A stretch of 64,000 nucleotides of DNA from a virus, in the IMG/VR virus record IMGVR_UViG_3300009149_000019, positions 1 to 64,000 of that record, one strand, 5' to 3'. The notes under the pieces were generated by a model. The model did not search any database, was not told where the DNA came from, and was given only the letters and a program-made list of their open reading frames with translations. The position numbers and the translations under genes are program-made. Shown piece after piece: positions 1,903-59,540 of the stretch. How positions within the stretch are numbered: position 1 is the stretch's first letter; each line of letters opens with the position of its first letter.

Positions 1903-2421
1903 ATGAGAAAAGAATGGATCGATCCGGTAAAACGGCCTGTAATGGACAGGGCATATATAATAAAAATGGTTCAGTGCCAGCAGACAAACTGGCAACTTAT
2001 GCCCGGTCGGGGTGGTACCAGGTACTATCTGGAGAACGATTCAGTTCACTCCATGAAACTATGGAGATTCACCAACATTTGCTGTAAAGCCAATGGTGTG
2101 CAAAGGCGCATTGGTAATAAAGAGCTTGGTTACGAACCAAGAGGGGTTCCTGGATTCCACTTCAGGCAAGTGCTGTTGGGGGATTACGTGATTCAGTTGA
2201 ATTTGATCGAAGATGGTATCTATACTATTGATATTTCTGAGATCATTAATTTTGAGTCAGACACCCAAAGCTGTAACATAAAGCTGAGGGCCAGGAACCT
2301 TAATGGTAAGTGGATACGTGGTGAAGAACGGATAGCACCTTTTAAGAAACTCTTGGAAAAGATAATTTATCCAAGGATTAACATGGTCTATAAGGCTAAG
2401 GAGGCACGAAGCATATGGTAG
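1903..2421 (+). CDS. Hypothetical protein, 172 aa
   Basis: GGGAGGGG upstream supports the ATG. The sequence is basic and mixed alpha/beta, with a glycine-rich turn (PGRGGTRYYLENDS) near residues 36-50. No recognised domain. Its end overlaps the AAA+ ATPase gene by seven bases, so the two are probably translated together and the product may be an accessory to the ATPase. Confidence 0.65.
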   Translation: MRKEWIDPVKRPVMDRAYIIKMVQCQQTNWQLMPGRGGTRYYLENDSVHSMKLWRFTNICCKANGVQRRIGNKELGYEPRGVPGFHFRQVLLGDYVIQLNLIEDGIYTIDISEIINFESDTQSCNIKLRARNLNGKWIRGEERIAPFKKLLEKIIYPRINMVYKAKEARSIW

Positions 2422-3935
2422 ACATCTCTTTTAATGATTTTATCGCGTGTGGGTCACCCATTATATGGATACCCACCCATGAGGACACACGGTGTGTCAG
2501 AGAGCTAGTGGATGCTCTTTCAGCAATACAGTATGATAAGAACACGTACGACATATTTCAGTGGGATTGTGTAAAGGGGGTTTATGACGAGGCAGGTAAG
2601 TCTCTAGGTGTACAGAACGGGGATGACCCCCTTTCCCCCATTACACATCTTGAGAAGATGGCTGTAGGGAAGCCTGCAATCATGTTTGCAAAGGACTTCC
2701 ACCACTACATTGAGAATCCTCAGATAATAAGGGCTCTCAAGAATGCAATATCTTTCTTTGAGACCTCTGATAAGCATTTTGTCATCTTAAGCCCGATGCT
2801 TAAGATACCTCCAGAAATGGAGAAGGACATAGTGGTGTGTGACTTTGATCTTCCAGGAACGGATATCATTGAAAAGATCGCAGTCACAATTGCTACTAAG
2901 AACAAAATGAAGTTAGGAAAGAAGGGGATAACGGAGGAGGACAGACAGGTGTTTCGAGCTGCCAAAGGGATGACTTGCCAAGAGGCTAAATGTGCCATCA
3001 GCCTTTCTTTGGTTAAGCACGGGGCATTTGACAGAGAAACTGTTGAGTCCATTAAACTCCAGCTTGTTAAGAAGACAGGATTAATGGATATTTACCCATC
3101 TGTTAACATTGAGGAGCTTGGGGGTTTACCTCAGTTGAAAAAGTATATTAATGCCAGGAAGGCTGGGTTTTCAAATCCAGACTTACCAATGCCTAGGGGA
3201 ATATTGATGGCAGGGCTACCAGGTGCAGGTAAATCTTTGGCATGTAAGGCCATTGCATCTGAGTTTGCTCTAACTCTCCTAAGACTTGACATTGGAAGTC
3301 TTAAGGCATTCCTGGTTGGGGAGTCTGAGCGGAAGATGAGAGACGCCCTCCGAATCATTGACATCCTTGCTCCGTGTGTGCTATGGTTGGACGAGATAGA
3401 GAAGGCCATAGGAGGAGCAAAGAGCTCCAACCGAACAGATGGTGGAACGACGTCTGCCATGTTTGGTCAGCTCCTGACATGGATGCAGGAGAAAGGGAAG
3501 GGTGTATACATTGTAGCTACATGCAATGACATAGGGGAGCTGCTGACTCTGAGTCAAGGGGCGCTGCTCAGGCGTTTCGATGACATATTCTTTGTAGATC
3601 TCCCAACCCCTAATGAGAGGCTTGAGATTGCAGAAATCATGAACAGACGATATAAGAGTAATATCACTGAAGAGATGGCACTTGCTTTGGAAGGATGGAC
3701 CGGTGCTGAGATTGAGAAACTGGCTAAAGCATCTCACTATGATGGGATGGAAGAGTCCATCAAGAAGATAAAGCCCGTGTTCCTTCAGAACAGGGAGCTG
3801 TTAGAGGCCGTTCGTGAATGGGCTGGAAACAATGCTCGCCGCGCAAATGAGGAGCTGGTCGATACTAACTCTTCGTCTGGTGGGGATCGAAAACTGAGAA
3901 CACTAATAAAGCCCCTGGAGTGTGGGGTTGCGTAG
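2415..3935 (+). CDS. Ycf46-like AAA+ ATPase, 506 aa
   Basis: A AAA+ ATPase of the Ycf46/FtsH-like type. The N-terminal about 240 residues form the accessory domain typical of this group (begins with PIIWIPTHEDTR). The AAA module follows: Walker A GLPGAGKS near residue 267, Walker B LWLDEIE near 322, a sensor-1 region VATCN and an arginine-containing ALLRRFDD segment. The last about 60 residues are helical. The downstream DUF1257 and DUF2997 genes form a set also seen in other bacteria and phages; in plastids and cyanobacteria the counterparts are Ycf46 and Ycf35. The substrate is unknown. Protein remodelling with the two small partners is the inference. Confidence 0.85.
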   Translation: MVDISFNDFIACGSPIIWIPTHEDTRCVRELVDALSAIQYDKNTYDIFQWDCVKGVYDEAGKSLGVQNGDDPLSPITHLEKMAVGKPAIMFAKDFHHYIENPQIIRALKNAISFFETSDKHFVILSPMLKIPPEMEKDIVVCDFDLPGTDIIEKIAVTIATKNKMKLGKKGITEEDRQVFRAAKGMTCQEAKCAISLSLVKHGAFDRETVESIKLQLVKKTGLMDIYPSVNIEELGGLPQLKKYINARKAGFSNPDLPMPRGILMAGLPGAGKSLACKAIASEFALTLLRLDIGSLKAFLVGESERKMRDALRIIDILAPCVLWLDEIEKAIGGAKSSNRTDGGTTSAMFGQLLTWMQEKGKGVYIVATCNDIGELLTLSQGALLRRFDDIFFVDLPTPNERLEIAEIMNRRYKSNITEEMALALEGWTGAEIEKLAKASHYDGMEESIKKIKPVFLQNRELLEAVREWAGNNARRANEELVDTNSSSGGDRKLRTLIKPLECGVA

Positions 3936-3943
3936 GAGGTTAT

Positions 3944-4321
3944 GTGAGCCACTTAGTAAAAACAAAATCGTGCTTGAAAAGAAAGGACATAGTTATCCAG
4001 GCATGTGAAGAGCTTGGAATTGAAGTCCTTGACGGGAAGAAATTTACATTGGAGCAGTCATACGGAGTCTCTGCCAAAGGTATGGGTATAAGGATAGGCA
4101 AAGACACCTTTGTGTTGGCTGATGACGGAACTGTCCAACACAGTTCGTACGTAAGGTCTAAAAGACATAAAGGTCTTACTTCCTTAAAGATGAAGTATAA
4201 CACCATTGTCATGAAGGAAGAGCTTGCCAGGAGAACCAGGAAGGGCGGACTCAAGTATACAATGAGGGAAAAGAAGAACGAGAAAACCGGAAAAATGTAC
4301 GTCGAAATAGACGTAGAATAG
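3944..4321 (+). CDS. DUF1257 / Ycf35-like protein, 125 aa
   Basis: The GTG at 3944 is preferred over an upstream in-frame GTG (3920): AGGAGG at 3934-3939 sits four bases before it, and the resulting N-terminus MSHLVK matches the MSH start usual in DUF1257 proteins. The domain continues with helix LKRKDIVIQACEELGIEV and a beta-rich middle. It follows the Ycf46-like ATPase with a small gap and precedes a DUF2997 protein. Family function is unknown; association with the ATPase is inferred from recurrent gene neighbourhood. Confidence 0.75.
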   Translation: MSHLVKTKSCLKRKDIVIQACEELGIEVLDGKKFTLEQSYGVSAKGMGIRIGKDTFVLADDGTVQHSSYVRSKRHKGLTSLKMKYNTIVMKEELARRTRKGGLKYTMREKKNEKTGKMYVEIDVE

Positions 4322-4332
4322 GAGGATCAGAC

Positions 4333-4530
4333 ATGGCGAAGATTATTATAGAGTTTGATGAGAACGGTGACATGACAGCTGATGCCCAGGGTTTCGAGGG
4401 GTCCTCCTGTGAAGAGGCCTTAGACTTCCTGAATGAGATCGGTGTTGTCTCAGAGAAAACCAAGAAAGCTGAATGGTACAAAAAGAACCTGAATAAGGTG
4501 GGGCAGGTAAAGGCGAAGCTTTGTGGATAG
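4333..4530 (+). CDS. DUF2997-like small protein, 65 aa
   Basis: The ATG is preceded by AGGAGG. The protein has the DUF2997 layout: a short beta strand (KIIIEFDENGD), a GFEGSSCEEA turn containing the single conserved cysteine, and a helix ending in a glutamate/lysine-rich tail. It is the third member of the ATPase/DUF1257/DUF2997 set. The cysteine-containing G-x-G-x-S/C turn suggests a ubiquitin-like-sized partner or a ligand site, which is speculative. Confidence 0.7.
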   Translation: MAKIIIEFDENGDMTADAQGFEGSSCEEALDFLNEIGVVSEKTKKAEWYKKNLNKVGQVKAKLCG

Positions 4531-5188
4531 CCTGGTACTTGATGTCAGGTGGGAGATAACCAAGAAAAAGCGTGGTAACCTCTGCCAACAGGTAAAGCTT
4601 TTCTTGGTGAGAAAGGATAGGTTATCAGAACAGATGACGGCAGCCTTGAAGTCATTTAGGTTTGATAGCAGCTATAAGTTACCATTTCCTATCTATACGG
4701 GTGTCACTTCCCTTAAGGATGGTCAGTACCTATCTGACCATTGTATGTGTTTTGATATCCTAAGAGTACGACTTAAAAGCAACTGGGCAGCTGTTAATGG
4801 TCAGCACTTAATACTGACAGGCTTGGACTGTAGCCATGACAACTGTAAACACAGCGGTAGGAGCTTTATACCGAGTAGAGACTGTGTAATGTGCTTACCA
4901 TGGTTCTCTGGTGTAAATCCAAAGGAGAACCTTAAGATGGAAGAAGTCTTTTCTAAAGTGAGAGAAGACATTATTGAGGAGTGGGGAATCTACATAGATA
5001 GTTTGGGATTGACAGAGTACGGTCATCTTGGTAGAATGCTTCGGCTGCCAAAAACAAGTACAGAGTCTAAAATAAGGATGCCTGCTTGTTACGGTGACGT
5101 TGATACTTTAGATGAGAACTGCCTTTCTTTATGCACTTTTTTCTATGCGTGCGCAGAAAGGGTTGAGAAGGCTCATCCTGAGCTTTAG
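4523..5188 (+). CDS. Hypothetical cysteine-rich protein, 221 aa
   Basis: It starts at a GTG overlapping the DUF2997 stop by eight bases, with a weak ribosome site. Cysteines cluster in the middle (DHCMCFD; LDCSHDNCKHSG; DCVMCLPW, residues about 72-135) and again near the end, suggesting bound metal. Near residue 172 it carries the octapeptide LGRMLRLP followed by a serine/threonine-rich STE stretch; the same octapeptide occurs in the unrelated-looking protein at 11541. No known family recognised. Confidence 0.6.
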   Translation: MDSLVLDVRWEITKKKRGNLCQQVKLFLVRKDRLSEQMTAALKSFRFDSSYKLPFPIYTGVTSLKDGQYLSDHCMCFDILRVRLKSNWAAVNGQHLILTGLDCSHDNCKHSGRSFIPSRDCVMCLPWFSGVNPKENLKMEEVFSKVREDIIEEWGIYIDSLGLTEYGHLGRMLRLPKTSTESKIRMPACYGDVDTLDENCLSLCTFFYACAERVEKAHPEL

Positions 5189-5191
5189 TTA
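5168..5191 (+). terminator. Short hairpin at the end of the cysteine-rich gene
   Basis: AAGGCTCA (5168-5175) can pair with TGAGCTTT (5179-5186) around a 3-nt loop, including a G-T pair, followed by an interrupted T run. It overlaps the stop codon. It may be a weak terminator separating the coding operon from the structured region downstream. Confidence 0.4.
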
Positions 5192-5614
5192 GTTCGAGAC
5201 TCAGTCGGGTGGGTCTATAAAAAAAGCCGATCCCGACTATTGTGTGAGAAGGGAACCCTCTATGACTGTGGTCTGACTCGCGATAAGACTGCAGTAGCAT
5301 GATCATAGGTGGGGAGCACAGCTAAAACTAGTAAACACCTTCCTTTATTTCTTTCCCCGTCATGCTGGATAAGGGAGTATGTCTGCCCCAGCCCTAGCAG
5401 TCCTTTGGGGTGAATACATACCTTCTGAGGAGGAATGTGAGGAAGTAGGGTATGTGATGTGCCTATGCTGCACACGCTGAGACTGTTAACAGAGCTTAAA
5501 CATGGAGGGTCAGTCACGGGTCATGTGCCTTTAGAGATTAGGCACAAGCTGAGCTGGAGTGAGCCAGTTGACGGTGACCACCCTCCGTGTAAGGGCTCAC
5601 TAAAGGAGGAAATT
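5189..5614 (+). ncRNA. Candidate large structured RNA or regulatory leader
   Basis: About 426 bases with no plausible gene but many helices found by hand: AGTCGGG 5203-5209 with 5232-5238; a 10-bp helix 5265-5274 with 5286-5295; AGCATGA 5296-5302 with 5360-5366, enclosing GGGG 5311-5314 with 5355-5358; CCCCA 5386-5390 with 5406-5410; ACATACCTT 5416-5424 with 5447-5455; TGTGC 5458-5462 with 5470-5474; GGAGGGT 5504-5510 with 5580-5586 plus GTCAC 5513-5517 with 5574-5578, closing a junction with TGTGCCT 5524-5530/5540-5546 and AGCTGG 5552-5557/5564-5569. The loop AGTGAG 5558-5563 can pair with CTCACT 5596-5601 just before the ribosome site of the next gene. It could be a free ncRNA or a cis-regulator. 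No match to a named class is claimed. Confidence 0.6.
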
Positions 5615-5977
5615 ATGATACAGGATGAGATAGCACGTATATTACAAGGAGAGGAGGACGAAGTGGACTGGATCATGTTAGACGAATCCAGAGGTTTTGT
5701 TGTGGACTCAAGAATGACAAATGATGGAACTGTTTATGCAGTTGCCCATTTTAAGATAGGAAGTGAGCAGCTTCATAACATCAGGCTTAAGTCAGTCCCT
5801 ACTAGCAAAGATTTTGATATTGAGGCTAGAGGAGAAGCTGCTACCCTTCTAATGTTTCACTGGAGGACTGGCCTTGAGATTGATAACGTGAAGGCTGGTA
5901 GAGAGGACGAGGAGATGAGAGCTCTTTACTTACAGAAAGTAAAGGAAGTCCTCATCACGAAAACGTATAAAAATTAA
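5615..5977 (+). CDS. Hypothetical protein, 120 aa
   Basis: AAAGGAGG at 5602-5609 fixes the start at the ATG at 5615; the open frame extends upstream into the structured RNA region but that part lacks a ribosome site. The protein is acidic and mixed alpha/beta with no recognised motif. It is the first gene after the structured 5189-5614 stretch and is the likely target if that stretch is a cis-regulatory leader. Confidence 0.6.
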   Translation: MIQDEIARILQGEEDEVDWIMLDESRGFVVDSRMTNDGTVYAVAHFKIGSEQLHNIRLKSVPTSKDFDIEARGEAATLLMFHWRTGLEIDNVKAGREDEEMRALYLQKVKEVLITKTYKN

Positions 5978-5988
5978 GGAGGTATCTA

Positions 5989-6561
5989 ATGGAAGATGGG
6001 GCAAGAATATTGACGTATAGAGCTTTCCTTGTGTTTTGTATACCCATGAGTTTTATTATGAAAACCGGAGGGGAGCAGGGAAACCCTGACTTAGTGTTGT
6101 GTGCTACTAGCCTGCTGATTACTGCAGCCCTTCTTACATTATATGATATTCGGAATATGTACACATTCCGAGATCATACATTGAATGTACTTAGCACGTA
6201 CATCTCAATTCTCGATAGAAAGATATTTTTCGGAATATCTGGATTCTCTCGGGAAGAGGCAATCAATACAGGGGCTGCCTTAGTCAAGCAAGAAGAAAGG
6301 TTTTGCCAGGATTTACTAATTCCTGGATATGTATCCATACTAGCGGTACACCTATTCTTCTATAACCTCTTTAGGGGTGAGCCTATTGTAGTTATGGGGG
6401 TCTTAGCAATAGCGAGCACTTATTACTCATTCTATTATGTGGGTAACAAAGTTGTTCCATCGAGGCGTGCAACCTTAACGCTAGTAGCCACTATAGCAGA
6501 CTTTATGAAAAAGAAACTGCCTATGTTAGCTGAAGAAGGAGGGGGACAGGACAGTGAGTAA
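5989..6561 (+). CDS. Predicted integral membrane protein, 190 aa
   Basis: AAGGAGG precedes the ATG. Hydrophobic segments near residues 10-25, 33-52, about 111-128 and 132-150 suggest four membrane helices arranged in two pairs, with a soluble segment between them (about 55-105) and a charged C-terminus. No transport or enzymatic motif is visible. It overlaps the next small gene by eight bases. Confidence 0.6.
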   Translation: MEDGARILTYRAFLVFCIPMSFIMKTGGEQGNPDLVLCATSLLITAALLTLYDIRNMYTFRDHTLNVLSTYISILDRKIFFGISGFSREEAINTGAALVKQEERFCQDLLIPGYVSILAVHLFFYNLFRGEPIVVMGVLAIASTYYSFYYVGNKVVPSRRATLTLVATIADFMKKKLPMLAEEGGGQDSE

Positions 6562-6835: not shown

Positions 6836-7201
6836 ATGACCATCATTGATTATGCTAAAAGTGGTGATTTTAACCAGATTAGAAATGCCTGTAGAAGAGG
6901 CGATGACGTAGAACTTCAGGATGCCCAGGGAAAAACAGCCCTAATGTATGTTTCTGGAAATGGAGACATGCGATCTGTAAAGCTGTTAGTATGCCAGGGT
7001 GCAGACGCGAACGCTGTAGACGAGCAAGGATGGACGGCCTTGTTTTACGCAGCTGCTGGTGGCCATATGGAAGCTGTTAAGTTCCTGATGAACAATGGAG
7101 CAGACACCACGGCCACATCAAAGAAACGAAAGGGATGGACTGCTGCATCCTTCGCTTCTTACCATGGCCACAAAGAGGTGGCGCAGTTTATAAAAAAGTA
7201 G
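6836..7201 (+). CDS. Ankyrin repeat protein, 121 aa
   Basis: AAAGGAGG precedes the ATG. About three and a half ankyrin repeats fill the protein: signature turns DAQGKTALMYVSGNGD, DEQGWTALFYAAAGGH and KGWTAASFASYHGH, each followed by a V-K-LL/FL helix and a G-AD-x-N/T loop. Ankyrin repeats bind proteins; the partner is unknown. It is the shortest of the ankyrin proteins in this window. Confidence 0.9.
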   Translation: MTIIDYAKSGDFNQIRNACRRGDDVELQDAQGKTALMYVSGNGDMRSVKLLVCQGADANAVDEQGWTALFYAAAGGHMEAVKFLMNNGADTTATSKKRKGWTAASFASYHGHKEVAQFIKK

Positions 7202-21200: not shown

Positions 21201-22229
21201 ATGCCAATTAAGGTAACACATATGAAAGGCCTATCACAAGAGGACCTCACCTCTTTTATGAGAAAAGCAATTAAGAAGGAGGGCGAAACTCAGGGATCTG
21301 TTGTAAGAAAGTCGATCAGATCCTTTTACTGGAGAACCCTCTTTCCAGAGTTTACGGCTGACGTCATTGAGACATGGTTCAGGCGTCAGGAACGCTACAA
21401 CGGGACCCGCCAGATGGAGCACGCGGTTTTCATAGCGTATGTTTCTGGGATTTCTGATGGAATACCATGGGCAGTCAACAACTACTGGAGGGGAAACATA
21501 GCACTCCAGCTTAAACACGCTTTGAGCGTGTGCTTACCTATTAGAGCGTCTATGGGTAAGCTTCCATTTACTTTCTTTCCTCGTATGAACTTTAAGTACG
21601 CCCGCTCCTCAGAGCAGGCAACGCATTTGATAGATGCAACCGCAATGGCACTATTCTTGACTAATGCAAGAATAGAGGATAAGGTTAGCTTTATTGTGGA
21701 AAGTCCGCCAATTTCAGGGTGGCACGAGTCTAATAGAGCATCTGTGCTGTCGGTTCTAGCTTCTGCTAAAAGTACCCAAGAGCTGTATGCCATGATAGAG
21801 GTCCTTTCTACATCTGTTAATAAGGATTTCTATGTAATGGCGTATGCGAAGACATTAGCTGGTGACGTAAGTGAACGCGCCTTTCTTGATATTCTGGAGT
21901 CAGGAGGGCCTGTAGTGGATGACATTGATCCCTTACTACTATTCCCGGTACTGTTTGATAGCCTATCAGCATCAACTGCTATCAAAGTACTGCAGGCCCT
22001 TAATAGTAATCAGCGCATAAAGGGACGTTCTTTTCTAACGGATGCTGTTCTTCTTGGGATACTATCCAGGAATAGTGAGAACTCCGTTAGAAATATTGTG
22101 TTAACATCAACCCCCGGTGCGGGGAGAGTTGAGGTTCTTCGTAAGAAGAACGAGAATGATATCATACGCATACGTGCTGCGTATGATAAGGCTATGGCCT
22201 TGGCTGGTGAGAAAGAAATGAGTGCTTAG
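21201..22229 (+). CDS. Hypothetical protein between topoisomerase genes, 342 aa
   Basis: It begins three bases after the upstream stop. Mostly helical; HEAT-like or other repeat architecture is possible but not demonstrated. Its C-terminal region (VLTSTPGAGRVEVLRKK) resembles part of the 475-aa protein at 25248 (LLRVTPDKGEIIAAFRKK). No known domain. Position between the two topoisomerase subunits may reflect function or chance insertion. Confidence 0.6.
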   Translation: MPIKVTHMKGLSQEDLTSFMRKAIKKEGETQGSVVRKSIRSFYWRTLFPEFTADVIETWFRRQERYNGTRQMEHAVFIAYVSGISDGIPWAVNNYWRGNIALQLKHALSVCLPIRASMGKLPFTFFPRMNFKYARSSEQATHLIDATAMALFLTNARIEDKVSFIVESPPISGWHESNRASVLSVLASAKSTQELYAMIEVLSTSVNKDFYVMAYAKTLAGDVSERAFLDILESGGPVVDDIDPLLLFPVLFDSLSASTAIKVLQALNSNQRIKGRSFLTDAVLLGILSRNSENSVRNIVLTSTPGAGRVEVLRKKNENDIIRIRAAYDKAMALAGEKEMSA

Positions 22230-22236
22230 ATGTATG

Positions 22237-22267
22237 GGGCTGGTATTATAATGGTATCAGCCCTTTT
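22237..22267 (+). terminator. Terminator before the topoisomerase small subunit
   Basis: GGGCTGGTA (22237-22245) pairs with TATCAGCCC (22255-22263) with one G-T pair, loop of 9, followed by TTTT. A convincing terminator or attenuator. Confidence 0.8.
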
Positions 22268-22284
22268 CCTGGAGGAAACCACGA

Positions 22285-23613
22285 ATGAGAGAGAAAATGA
22301 TAAGTGTAGACATCGCAGAGGCCATACGGAGTAACTATAAGGCCTTTGGGAAAAAGGAGAATGAGGACCGTAAGATCCCTAAAAGACGTGATGGCCTACG
22401 GCCTGTATCTCGTAGGGTCCTTTACTCCTCATACAAGTGTGGGATTGGAACAAAGTCTATGAAGAGTGCAGTCATCTGTGGAGATTGTTCTGGACACTAT
22501 CATCCTCACAGTGACGACATCATATACGGTGCCCTGGTAACTCTAACAAAGTCTGGGCTGTATGAGACTCAAGGAAATTTTGGGTCTATTCATGGGATGT
22601 CTCCTGCTTCCCCCGCTGCCAAACGGTATACGGACTGCAAATTAACAAAAGAAGCCACAGATATGATGTTTGGCTTAATAGACTTTGTGCCGTACACCAA
22701 AAATAATTTGAACTTTGAGGAACCTGACTTCCTCCCGACCAAATACCCTCTATGTTACTTCCAGAGTACTCTTAACTCTGGTATTGGTTTTGGTTATAGG
22801 GGTGATTACCCATCTTATAAGCTTGAAGACCTCAAACAGCGTTTGTTCTGGCTTATAAAGCAGAGGAAAACAGAACCAATCATCGAACCCTATTATGGTG
22901 ACTACTTAGAAGTTAAATCTTCAAAAGATGAACTAAAGAGACTTCTGACTACTGGGGAAGGGTCCATTACCTTTGTACCTAAAGTGGTTATCTCCGGACC
23001 TAAAACCATTTCCATCCTTGCGAACAGCATGGCTGGTAATTTTAAGAAGCAGGTCTTTTCAGTGTTTGATGACAAGATGCTCAAAGCTGGACAGGTTGGT
23101 ATTGTAGACAGGTCAACAACCAAGACAGAGGTTGTTATAACTTTCTACGGAAGAGGAATAAATCCGAAGGATTATGTAAAGTTGCTCTCCGATAGACTGT
23201 CCTTCGCTGTATCATACAACTGCATCTTTGTAAATGATGACCGGTCTATCGAGAAGGTGTCTGTTGATCAGATGCTTGTTGAGATATACCAGCAGTACAA
23301 GGATCTCTTCTTTAAGAAGATTGATTATGATGTTCAGCAGTTACAAAGAAAGATCTCAGACATGGACATAATCGCAAAAATTAGACCATTTCTGAGAAGA
23401 CATCTCGGAAGAGAAGTCACTGCTGAGCTGTCATCTATAATATCAGACCTTTCCAGGAATGCATCAATTCCTGTAGAAGACATCTCCAGGGTCATTGGTG
23501 CTTACAGCATCAAGGTACTCTTAACCTGTAATACAGACAGTACTGCCTTACAGGCAAAAGTTAAGGAGACGACTGCTAAAAAGACTGAAGCAGAAGTCAT
23601 ATCTCATTACTAA
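22285..23613 (+). CDS. Type II DNA topoisomerase breakage-reunion subunit, 442 aa
   Basis: A GyrA/ParC N-terminal type subunit: KIPKRRDGLRPVSRR, then CSGHYHPHSDD, QGNFGS, and the active-site tyrosine in AAKRYTD near residue 114. It lacks the C-terminal beta-pinwheel of GyrA/ParC, and its length is close to T4 gp52 (about 440 aa). Together with the 687-aa subunit it makes a T4-like phage topoisomerase. GGAGG supports the ATG. Confidence 0.93.
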   Translation: MREKMISVDIAEAIRSNYKAFGKKENEDRKIPKRRDGLRPVSRRVLYSSYKCGIGTKSMKSAVICGDCSGHYHPHSDDIIYGALVTLTKSGLYETQGNFGSIHGMSPASPAAKRYTDCKLTKEATDMMFGLIDFVPYTKNNLNFEEPDFLPTKYPLCYFQSTLNSGIGFGYRGDYPSYKLEDLKQRLFWLIKQRKTEPIIEPYYGDYLEVKSSKDELKRLLTTGEGSITFVPKVVISGPKTISILANSMAGNFKKQVFSVFDDKMLKAGQVGIVDRSTTKTEVVITFYGRGINPKDYVKLLSDRLSFAVSYNCIFVNDDRSIEKVSVDQMLVEIYQQYKDLFFKKIDYDVQQLQRKISDMDIIAKIRPFLRRHLGREVTAELSSIISDLSRNASIPVEDISRVIGAYSIKVLLTCNTDSTALQAKVKETTAKKTEAEVISHY

Positions 23614-41742: not shown

Positions 41743-41785
41743 TCTTTTTTGAGTTTGGTACTTTGGGCATTTTAGAAAAATACCA

Positions 41786-41815
41786 TTGTACTTCCAATAT
41801 ACTCTCTGCTATACT
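41786..41815 (+). promoter_or_regulatory. Sigma70-like promoter candidate before the RNA polymerase genes
   Basis: TTGTAC (41786-41791), an 18-base spacer and TATACT (41810-41815) resemble a host sigma70 promoter, about 145 bases ahead of the beta' start. If used, the host polymerase would transcribe the phage polymerase genes. Confidence 0.5.
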
Positions 41816-41961
41816 GAGTGCGACCGACTACAAGCAGTAGTTGTATAACAATGCACTACTGCATAAATTTATGGCGGAGCGCTCGCCGGTAGCTGAGAGA
41901 CTTAAAAAAACAACAATGGTCTAACCACTCTTAGCTTCTATAGTGCACAGGAGGGTTTTCC
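41816..41961 (+). other. Structured leader of the beta' gene
   Basis: Three stems lie downstream of the promoter candidate: GCAGTAGT 41834-41841 with ACTACTGC 41855-41862; GGCG 41873-41876 with CGCC 41884-41887; AGCTGAGAG 41891-41899 with CTCTTAGCT 41928-41936 (one G-T pair). The A-rich loop of the third is 28 bases. AGGAGG follows. Likely a structured 5' leader. Confidence 0.5.
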
Positions 41962-51728: not shown

Positions 51729-52322
51729 ATGACAGAGAGCTTGATTGACTTAAATGAGCGTTTGTGGCAGGCAGTTATGGTAGACGCCGTGGAGGAGGCA
51801 AAATTTCTTATACAGTGCGGAGCTGATATTGGTTACATGATGGCTGATCGCTCCCTCTTAGATGTAGCGGTTTCAAAGGGGTGCGTTAACGCTGTAAAGC
51901 TTCTCCTCAAAGCAGGGGCTGATGTTAACAGCATGTTTTATTGTACTACTACAAGCATCGTCTTAGCTTGTGAGCTGGGCAACAAGGAGATAGTGGAGAC
52001 GTTACTTGAGGCAGGTGCTGATGTTAACGATGTTGGGGTGAGTGGATTATCTCCTCTTATAGCAGCATCTGCTTTTAACAAAATGGATCTAGTGTCTTTA
52101 TTGTTGGAAAGAGGAGCATATCCTGACATAAAAGATCATGATGGAAGGACTGCACTGTTTTATGCGTGCCGACACGGCAGTAAAATGGTAGAGGTACTCC
52201 TCAAGTATGGAGCAGACCCTTCAATAGAGGATAAATCAGGAAACACCTGTCATGATCGTATCTTATGTAAAAATAATGACATCTATAAGCTACTGAGGGA
52301 AGCACTACCGAAAGAACTGTAG
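51729..52322 (+). CDS. Ankyrin repeat protein, 197 aa
   Basis: Four to five ankyrin repeats: signatures DRSLLDVAVSKGCVNAVKLLL, SIVLACELGNKEIVETLLEAG, LSPLIAASAFNKMDLVSLLL and GRTALFYACRHGS. They are regular and near consensus, suggesting protein binding. Own terminator upstream, so a separate unit. Partner unknown. AAAGGAG precedes the ATG. Confidence 0.9.
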   Translation: MTESLIDLNERLWQAVMVDAVEEAKFLIQCGADIGYMMADRSLLDVAVSKGCVNAVKLLLKAGADVNSMFYCTTTSIVLACELGNKEIVETLLEAGADVNDVGVSGLSPLIAASAFNKMDLVSLLLERGAYPDIKDHDGRTALFYACRHGSKMVEVLLKYGADPSIEDKSGNTCHDRILCKNNDIYKLLREALPKEL

Positions 52323-57466: not shown

Positions 57467-58600
57467 ATGGTTAATGTTGACGAAATGTTTGAGACAGTTG
57501 ATGACGTTCTTAAATGTGATACGTTACTAATAGCTTTACAGCACTTGTTGATACAGGCCACCAAAGAGTCTGACTTAGATTTACTTTATAGGCTTGATTG
57601 GTTAGGGGTATATCCACGCGTTTACAACAGTAGGGTAATGCAGAATGAGCGTAACATCCCATCTACACTAGTTGTGGGATCTTCTTATATACAATTGTTT
57701 CAGGGAGCAGGACATTCCATAGCTTTTCAGAGATTATGTTTATCCGTACACCCATCTTTAGACGCAGTTAAGCATTTCTTTTTAGTATTGAACATCTCGG
57801 GCGTAGCATGTGAAACAAGAAAGGAGTGGGAAAGAAGAACAGCATCCTTTTATATGTGTAATCGAGGGTTCGATTTAGACATACTGCGTTATCTTATTGA
57901 TAATCATGGGGCAGATGTTAATGAGCCATGTAAACACTTATTAGACAATGAAACAGAGTTTACTGCGTTACAGGCGCTATGTTTCTATGGACCTAAGGAC
58001 TTGTCACTCCAGGAGCTAGCAAACAGACTGTCTTTCCTATTAGAGCATGGAGCTGATATCAACAAGGCTGGTAGAGAGGATAGTGACCTGGCTTCTCCTC
58101 TTCGGCTTGCTATTCATGCCATGGCTCCCTTTGCCTTTGTGAGGAAACTTATCGAGGCGGGTGCTGATGTTAACATGATACAACAAACAAGTACTAGGTA
58201 TAACAGTCCCATTACCTATTCTATTATGGTATCGTCATACAGTGATCGTGGGAAGATAGACCTATTTCTTTTGTTTGCGGATCATGGAGTAAAGGCTGAG
58301 CATTTTTTATACGAACATCCAGACAGACACGATCTACCTAATAAGACTCCTGTAGAGTTCGTGGTTCGCTACTACGACGGCATTTCTATCTCCCTACTGG
58401 AAAAGCGTCTGCAGAAGATGTTGGGCATTGATAATGTATCATCCTTCTTTTGTAGATGGGCAATGTTGACAAATGGTGAAGACAAGAGGAAAAGATTGAT
58501 TGGAGAAAATTTCTTAAAAAGAAAAGCTGCCCAGATCAAAAGGAAGTTAAAGGAAGCCGCACGCGTAGACTTATTGGAGGTTATTGCTGGTCATGATTAA
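57467..58600 (+). CDS. Ankyrin repeat protein, 377 aa
   Basis: AGGAGG precedes the ATG. Ankyrin units are visible around residues 144-162 (ILRYLIDNHGADVNEP), 165-200 (LQALCFYG, SFLLEHGADINKAG) and 205-245 (SPLRLAIHAM, KLIEAGADVNMI). Outer regions are degenerate and helical, with a basic C-terminus. Partner unknown. The stop overlaps the next ankyrin gene. Confidence 0.88.
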   Translation: MVNVDEMFETVDDVLKCDTLLIALQHLLIQATKESDLDLLYRLDWLGVYPRVYNSRVMQNERNIPSTLVVGSSYIQLFQGAGHSIAFQRLCLSVHPSLDAVKHFFLVLNISGVACETRKEWERRTASFYMCNRGFDLDILRYLIDNHGADVNEPCKHLLDNETEFTALQALCFYGPKDLSLQELANRLSFLLEHGADINKAGREDSDLASPLRLAIHAMAPFAFVRKLIEAGADVNMIQQTSTRYNSPITYSIMVSSYSDRGKIDLFLLFADHGVKAEHFLYEHPDRHDLPNKTPVEFVVRYYDGISISLLEKRLQKMLGIDNVSSFFCRWAMLTNGEDKRKRLIGENFLKRKAAQIKRKLKEAARVDLLEVIAGHD

Positions 58601-59540
58601 AAAAGAAATAAAGAAAAATTTGCTCCATGAGTTTGTAGAAAAGGCACAGAAAACCACAAACGGTTATGAGGTTATGGAATATCTGGTTACCCTTTGCGTG
58701 ACGAGTAGCCCAAATGATGTAAAAATGTGTAAGTGGTTATTAGATCAGGGCTTTAATTTTCCTGAATACCTTCTTAAAAATAGAGAAAACTTTCTGTACA
58801 GGATTGTCGGCCGGATTAGTGATGACAACGTTGATTATATCCGTGCGTCACTGCCGATGGGGGTTATTGGTAAGTATGAGACTGTGGAAATGAAAAAGAA
58901 CTCCTACAATGGCGCTTTTATCTCTAACCATCTTTCATATAATAAAACGCCAAGTATAAAAGTTGTACAATTTTTTATTGATAATGGTTGTGCCATAAAT
59001 GTACCAGTTAGAGGGACACATGATCCACCATTGTTAGTAGCTGTTTGTGAGGTTAAGCACAATTCCCTTCCTTTCGTACAACTTTTACTCAAAGCTGGTG
59101 CAGACCCAAACAACAGCTATGGGCGGCCTGATGGGGTCAGCACACTTACCCCCTTAATGGCAGCTTGTAAGATGAGGAAGGTTGACGTGGTTACTGCCTT
59201 GCTTGAGGCTGGAGCACGCATCCCTAAGGTAAAAAAAGGAGAAGACTGCCCTTTGATGCATTCTATGTTTTCTGGATGGCGGGATAACACCCAACATGGT
59301 AAGTCTGAAAGGATATTTAATATCCTTATGAAGCATGGGTATGACTCTTCTCTTCTCTACCGACCTGTTATGGAAGGACGTACTCCAATACATAATATAA
59401 TAAGGTTTCGTTCTATTAAGTCACAGGCATCGACACTGAAAAAGTTATATGGCAAAAAGAGAGCATCTTCTATTGTGATGTCTTGGAGTATAGATAATCA
59501 GGAAGATAGGTATTCTGAATTACTCTCTGCTCTCTCTTGA
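58593..59540 (+). CDS. Ankyrin repeat protein, 315 aa
   Basis: The ATG at 58593 is preferred to a TTG at 58584, with GGAGG upstream at a long spacing. Ankyrin units: PSIKVVQFFIDNGCAI, PLLVAVCEV then LPFVQLLLKAGADPNN, and LTPLMAACKMRKVDVVTALLEAGA. Continuous with the preceding ankyrin gene by overlap, suggesting tandem duplication. Partner unknown. Confidence 0.85.
   Translation: MIKKEIKKNLLHEFVEKAQKTTNGYEVMEYLVTLCVTSSPNDVKMCKWLLDQGFNFPEYLLKNRENFLYRIVGRISDDNVDYIRASLPMGVIGKYETVEMKKNSYNGAFISNHLSYNKTPSIKVVQFFIDNGCAINVPVRGTHDPPLLVAVCEVKHNSLPFVQLLLKAGADPNNSYGRPDGVSTLTPLMAACKMRKVDVVTALLEAGARIPKVKKGEDCPLMHSMFSGWRDNTQHGKSERIFNILMKHGYDSSLLYRPVMEGRTPIHNIIRFRSIKSQASTLKKLYGKKRASSIVMSWSIDNQEDRYSELLSALS

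Follow-up and report, generated by a model that had tools for sequence, protein, structure and literature searches.

How does a virus whose genes fill nearly all of its sequence come to hold 426 consecutive bases that encode no protein, and what could these bases do? The record concerned (IMG/VR IMGVR_UViG_3300009149_000019) has 84,002 bases, and the window, the whole stretch of DNA that we analysed, is its first 64,000. Called genes take up ~95% of the 84,000 bases examined and lie essentially all on the + strand, with 70 open reading frames (ORFs) of at least 150 aa forward against 7 reverse in the 84-kb record. The locus that raises the question is the following.

5189 to 5614, + strand: longest non-coding gap in the record, with 49.3% G+C (99.7th percentile)

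The earlier note had called so much non-coding sequence unusual in a packed genome, and the comparison bears it out: the gaps that follow in length measure 286, 250, 219 and 215 nt, and at least three of these four hold ORFs. It is also free of genes, as had been claimed, with no convincing one between the stop codon of a 221-aa ORF (5188) and the ATG at 5615. Its G+C content, against a genome mean of 42.4%, places it in the top 0.3% of segments of the same length. In the discovery of structured RNAs in bacterial genomes, long and G+C-rich intergenic regions are the signature (PMC8632094); since the gap shows both traits, we counted them in favour of a structured leader. Based on our results, we give a probability of roughly 0.4 to the reading that the stretch serves as a structured, non-coding leader, or intercistronic region, of the operon of the downstream 120-aa gene, with a Y-shaped element as its core, translation ON by default and perhaps a boundary for mRNA processing or stability.

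The folding of the gap as a whole does not single it out. Two runs, each against its own dinucleotide shuffles, gave z = -3.14 and -2.7, and 100 other 426-nt segments of the genome have a mean z of -1.65 (sd 1.61, lowest -7.6), so that the idea of an exceptional fold over the entire 426 bases is not upheld: the gap lies within 1 sd of the genome's ordinary segments. The genome's mean local z (-0.74) falls at the strong end of the range spanned by ten other phage loci (0.04 to -0.80) but inside it, and the background of structure is thus not odd. The stability excess of the gap sits in its last ~110 nt (5501-5620, local z -3.8) and weakly in 5201-5320 (-2.5), while the middle (5301-5520, local z 0.3 and 0.6) folds no better than shuffles. 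The many helices reported previously turn out to be a chance-level crop where Watson-Crick helices of at least 6 bp are counted (12 vs 9.1 +/- 3.1 shuffled); helices of at least 8 bp that include G-U pairs are enriched (27 vs 13.4, a count reached in 1% of shuffles). Among the individual helices of the 5' part, the 10-bp one at 5265-5274/5286-5295 is present, nine of its pairs having probabilities of ~0.97-0.99 and the outermost 0.61, and the long-range helix 5296-5302/5360-5366 reaches an ensemble probability of just 0.22. Very strong folding is also found in two coding segments, 22041-22466 (z -7.6) and 6081-6506 (z -6.3).

5265 to 5295, + strand: 10-bp hairpin of the 5' part, G-U pairs included, local z -1.9

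The three-way junction that had been placed at 5504-5517/5574-5586 is present and reaches further outward than first described, to 5492/5598. Its predicted parts, and the gene that they precede, are these.

5492 to 5598, + strand: Y-shaped three-way-junction element of 107 nt, -56.6 kcal/mol, z -5.8
5492-5497/5593-5598, + strand: helix P1, 6 bp
5500-5510/5580-5590, + strand: helix P2, 11 bp
5513-5517/5574-5578, + strand: helix P3, 5 bp
5520-5522/5570-5572, + strand: helix P4, 3 bp
5524-5530/5540-5546, + strand: hairpin P5, 7 bp
5547-5551/5565-5569 and 5553-5555/5562-5564, + strand: hairpin P6, 5 + 3 bp
5615 to 5977, + strand: 120-aa gene of no known family, directly 3' of the Y-shaped element

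In this prediction P1 to P4 form a stem of 25 nearly coaxial bp, interrupted by small internal loops and topped by the two hairpins. None of the shuffles is equally stable, although the element was chosen after inspection of the sequence and its z is therefore optimistic. Less affected by that choice is the genome-wide ranking by energy, in which it is the lowest-energy 115-nt segment among those tested on both strands of the 84 kb, the next one having -49.9 kcal/mol. The reverse strand of the region folds at -47.3 kcal/mol; the sense strand is favoured by 9 kcal/mol, as expected for an RNA of the coding strand that contains G-U pairs. The 3' end of the Y lies 4 nt before the Shine-Dalgarno sequence of the 120-aa gene. 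The earlier suggestion of a riboswitch-like leader thus survives in part: a structured leader finds support in the 3' ~110 nt, which hold the most stable segment, with the sense strand favoured, directly before a ribosome site, while the switch finds none (see below). We also noted a 24-nt direct repeat (75% identity, near chance) between 5540-5563, part of P5 and P6, and 5169-5192, where the upstream gene ends, stop codon included.

Whether such a structure would hinder or spare translation depends on the bases that follow it.

5602 to 5609, + strand: ribosome site of the 120-aa gene (Shine-Dalgarno AAAGGAGG), unusually accessible by prediction
5594 to 5606, + strand: tail GGCUCACUAAAGG, complementary to the P5 and P6 loop regions, of doubtful function

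On average, the 15 nt before the start are unpaired with a probability of 0.745. The mean for the genome is 0.43, and the gene ranks in the 97th percentile of the 113 compared; its ribosome site is predicted to be open. A regulated leader, in which a protein or small molecule redirects the tail GGCUCACUAAAGG to the P5 and P6 loop regions and the Shine-Dalgarno becomes covered, would draw on two perfect complementarities between the hairpin loop regions and this Shine-Dalgarno-bearing tail, one of 7 bp (CUAAAGG at the start of the Shine-Dalgarno with the P5 loop region, 5528-5534) and one of 8 bp (5558-5565/5594-5601). The latter extends the loop-to-tail pairing proposed beforehand, which is thus real as complementarity; as a structure it is costly, since the alternatives in which the tail pairs with the hairpin loops, or in which the Shine-Dalgarno is covered, lie 16-26 kcal/mol above the Y and would have to arise after the Y has already been transcribed. 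The competing helices on which a switch had been founded have probabilities of 0.06 and 0.00, and their number (2 vs 1.7 +/- 1.7 in shuffles) is that of chance. A riboswitch requires mutually exclusive folds of similar energy by which a ribosome site or terminator is exposed or covered, and the energy of the covering folds therefore disfavours one here; the gap has no + strand terminator, and no known riboswitch matches. Overall, we regard a regulated leader as improbable.

We are still more sceptical of a coding explanation, according to which the downstream protein would start at GTG 5459 and have 172 aa, and a 33-codon ORF at 5379-5480 might be coding too, so that part of the stretch would be gene. 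The frame is open from 5459, and the codon score of 5459-5614 exceeds those of all 39 spurious open stretches of equal length, but it reaches only the 10th percentile of real coding stretches. Scored frame by frame, 5189-5299, the 33-codon ORF and 5459-5536 resemble non-coding frames; a coding-like score is confined to 5537-5614, the last 26 codons; the Shine-Dalgarno is part of them, and its letters spell common codons. The ribosome site of GTG 5459 is weak, whereas ATG 5615 has AAAGGAGG, and this weakness together with the non-coding-like first half makes an N-terminal extension unlikely. Finally, the genome's most stable hairpin would fall within the gene. By computation, then, the stretch is non-coding in character. 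The 33-codon ORF, which ends in ...MCLCCTR 11 nt 5' of P1 behind a weak ribosome site, is imaginable as a cysteine-rich leader peptide; its codon score is non-coding-like.

For the preferred reading, a structured leader, the transcription signals are of particular relevance.

5009 to 5037, + strand: promoter-like TTGACA-17-TAGAAT with a TGn extended -10, 11/12 consensus matches, within the 221-aa gene at its 3' end

Sites of at least 11/12 with the TG occur twice on the + strand of the 84 kb and nowhere on the - strand. Transcription from this site would begin near 5044 and give the 120-aa gene a leader of ~570 nt. Within the gap the + strand has no terminator-like site. We considered and rejected a minus-strand RNA that would stop at a weak terminator-like site (5238-5225), as the - strand shows no promoter in 4900-6100 and has essentially no genes.

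How such a leader could work is what we infer from these elements, as regards the transcription start, a processing or stability role and any regulation. Transcripts of the + strand may start at the 5009 promoter, read through from upstream, or both; the Y would fold on the nascent mRNA and wall off the upstream RNA; the Shine-Dalgarno, 4 nt downstream, would stay single-stranded and translation would be ON by default; and the long helix could mark a processed mRNA end, through an RNase III-type cut or as a 5' stabiliser that blocks decay. RNase III cuts transcripts of T7, T3 and lambda, and ~22 nt has been used as the minimum for its targets (PMC5371410). With 25 predicted bp in P1 to P4 upstream of the gene, the stem of the Y exceeds that length (~22 bp) and is long enough for the enzyme, so that the Y may, as a cutting or stopping point, divide the upstream RNA from the message of the 120-aa operon. 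Judged from its shape, in this one sequence, the Y would most likely serve as such an mRNA end as well. The closest parallels are the leaders and intercistronic hairpins processed by RNase III that are cited in PMC5371410 and PMC3997798 (T7 and T3 RNAs, lambda N and cIII, and the E. coli pnp and rncO leaders). These share with the Y a long imperfect stem of >22 bp on the 5' side of a gene in a multi-gene transcript; the Y-shaped head is the Y's own, and the Y is a candidate for cleavage. The 5'-terminal stem-loop stabilisers of mRNA, examples of which are among the references of PMC3997798, likewise put a stable stem directly before an open ribosome site, but the classical ones stand at the very 5' end, whereas the predicted 5' end in our case is ~450 nt upstream of the Y unless the RNA is processed. 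Counting against the leader reading is the rest of the leader, 5301-5488, which has no excess of structure. The kind of phage mRNA architecture is an ordinary one, and the sequence is new.

Large RNAs, ROOL and GOLLD among them, are also carried by large phages (PMC12286853), and the stretch could instead encode a stand-alone non-coding RNA, from ~5044 or 5189 to 5598, that is set free when the transcript is processed at the Y, or else transcribed from a promoter of its own, and that has its effect in trans. Its length, G+C content and promoter match would suit such an RNA, the Y could serve as a stable 3' end, and ROOL and GOLLD, which like the stretch are phage-borne, non-coding and hundreds of nt long, offer the precedent. 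Unlike them, the stretch has no Rfam match, is not heavily structured throughout and lies in no tRNA island; ROOL and GOLLD are frequently found near phage tRNA genes, and the 84 kb hold none. A scan against all families of Rfam 15, including GOLLD, ROOL and OLE, gave no match at the gathering score in the window or in the remaining 20 kb, and at E <= 10 the gap yielded chance-level matches only (the highest score, 18.2 bits, compares with a cutoff of 50), none of them to a model of group I or group II introns. As the middle ~200 nt fold like shuffles and a family match is missing, a large ornate RNA is disfavoured; with no + strand terminator either, the new large RNA that the earlier note envisaged finds no support, and we consider a stand-alone RNA unlikely. 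The Y also recalls the packaging RNA of the phi29 type, which has ~110-120 nt, a terminal helix and a three-way junction with two hairpins. The resemblance is one of outline only: the context differs, and Rfam at E <= 10 has no match.

Relatives of the stretch were sought at the levels of DNA, protein and structure model, and none was found, which counts against the leader and the stand-alone RNA alike. Distant BLAST and three exact patterns retrieved no homologue of the gap DNA from phages, plasmids or IMG/VR, and the contigs that match the exact patterns share nothing with it beyond the pattern; no relative of the gap was reached through either flanking protein in IMG/VR or in 48 loci of an AAA gene; and a single-sequence covariance model run over 51 sources (872 kb) recovered the element itself only. 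The record sets searched may omit the nearest records, and absence from them is not absence in nature. That conservation cannot be shown suits the further possibility of a functionless remnant of decayed DNA in which the hairpin is incidental, as does the weak 24-nt repeat of the upstream gene end inside the Y. As a decayed copy of the upstream gene, however, the gap was rejected, since a frameshift-tolerant alignment to that gene's protein scores 37 against a null of 29 +/- 4 and is not significant; none of the record's other proteins matches the gap convincingly, and the single most stable segment of the record sits exactly before a ribosome site. We therefore take a lack of function to be distinctly unlikely. 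A new class of phage RNA, with the Y as 3' domain and loops that pair with its own tail beside the Shine-Dalgarno, regulating the operon in cis and released to act in trans, is a long shot. If the class proved conserved, it would enlarge the small set of known large phage RNAs; at present it is one sequence without relatives. If the leader reading is true, the locus provides a compact and testable Y-shaped RNA, from a lineage of viruses that has hardly any known relatives, with which to study mRNA boundaries and open ribosome sites in the dense operons of large phages.

As read by eye from the ORF translations, the record has genes for replication, namely those for a DNA polymerase of family A, a RecA-like protein and a topoisomerase pair, and it also encodes both large subunits of RNA polymerase. 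The beta' protein has only distant phage relatives (28-32% identity), and queries with RNA polymerase beta and the DNA polymerase found no close relatives among viral contigs. The single genome-contig relative of the DNA polymerase (30%) is on the Nitrospinaceae MAG contig DFQF01000099.1, a weak hint that related phages may occur there. The 221-aa and 120-aa proteins that flank the gap have no relatives, IMG/VR included, and their AlphaFold models (pLDDT 47 and 31) are too poor for use. Further upstream, at 2415-4530, an AAA ATPase gene, an unassigned 125-aa gene and a DUF2997 gene follow one another in that order. The ATPase matches phrog_8638 and, weakly, the IetA models of PADLOC; its relatives at the 48 IMG/VR loci (29-39% identity) mark it as a member of a widespread AAA family, and these loci have no neighbours in common except for one nearby DUF2997 match. 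Several ankyrin-repeat or ankyrin-like proteins are encoded, at 6836-7201 (by a Pfam match) and, by eye, at 51729-52322, 57467-59540 and 68451-69470 (record coordinates). A second strong fold (41802-41900, -42.1 kcal/mol, z -5.1) lies in the 219-nt gap 41743-41961 before the RNA polymerase beta' gene. It overlaps a promoter-like TTGTAC-18-TATACT and, as its upstream part would be inside that promoter, may be partly a DNA palindrome.
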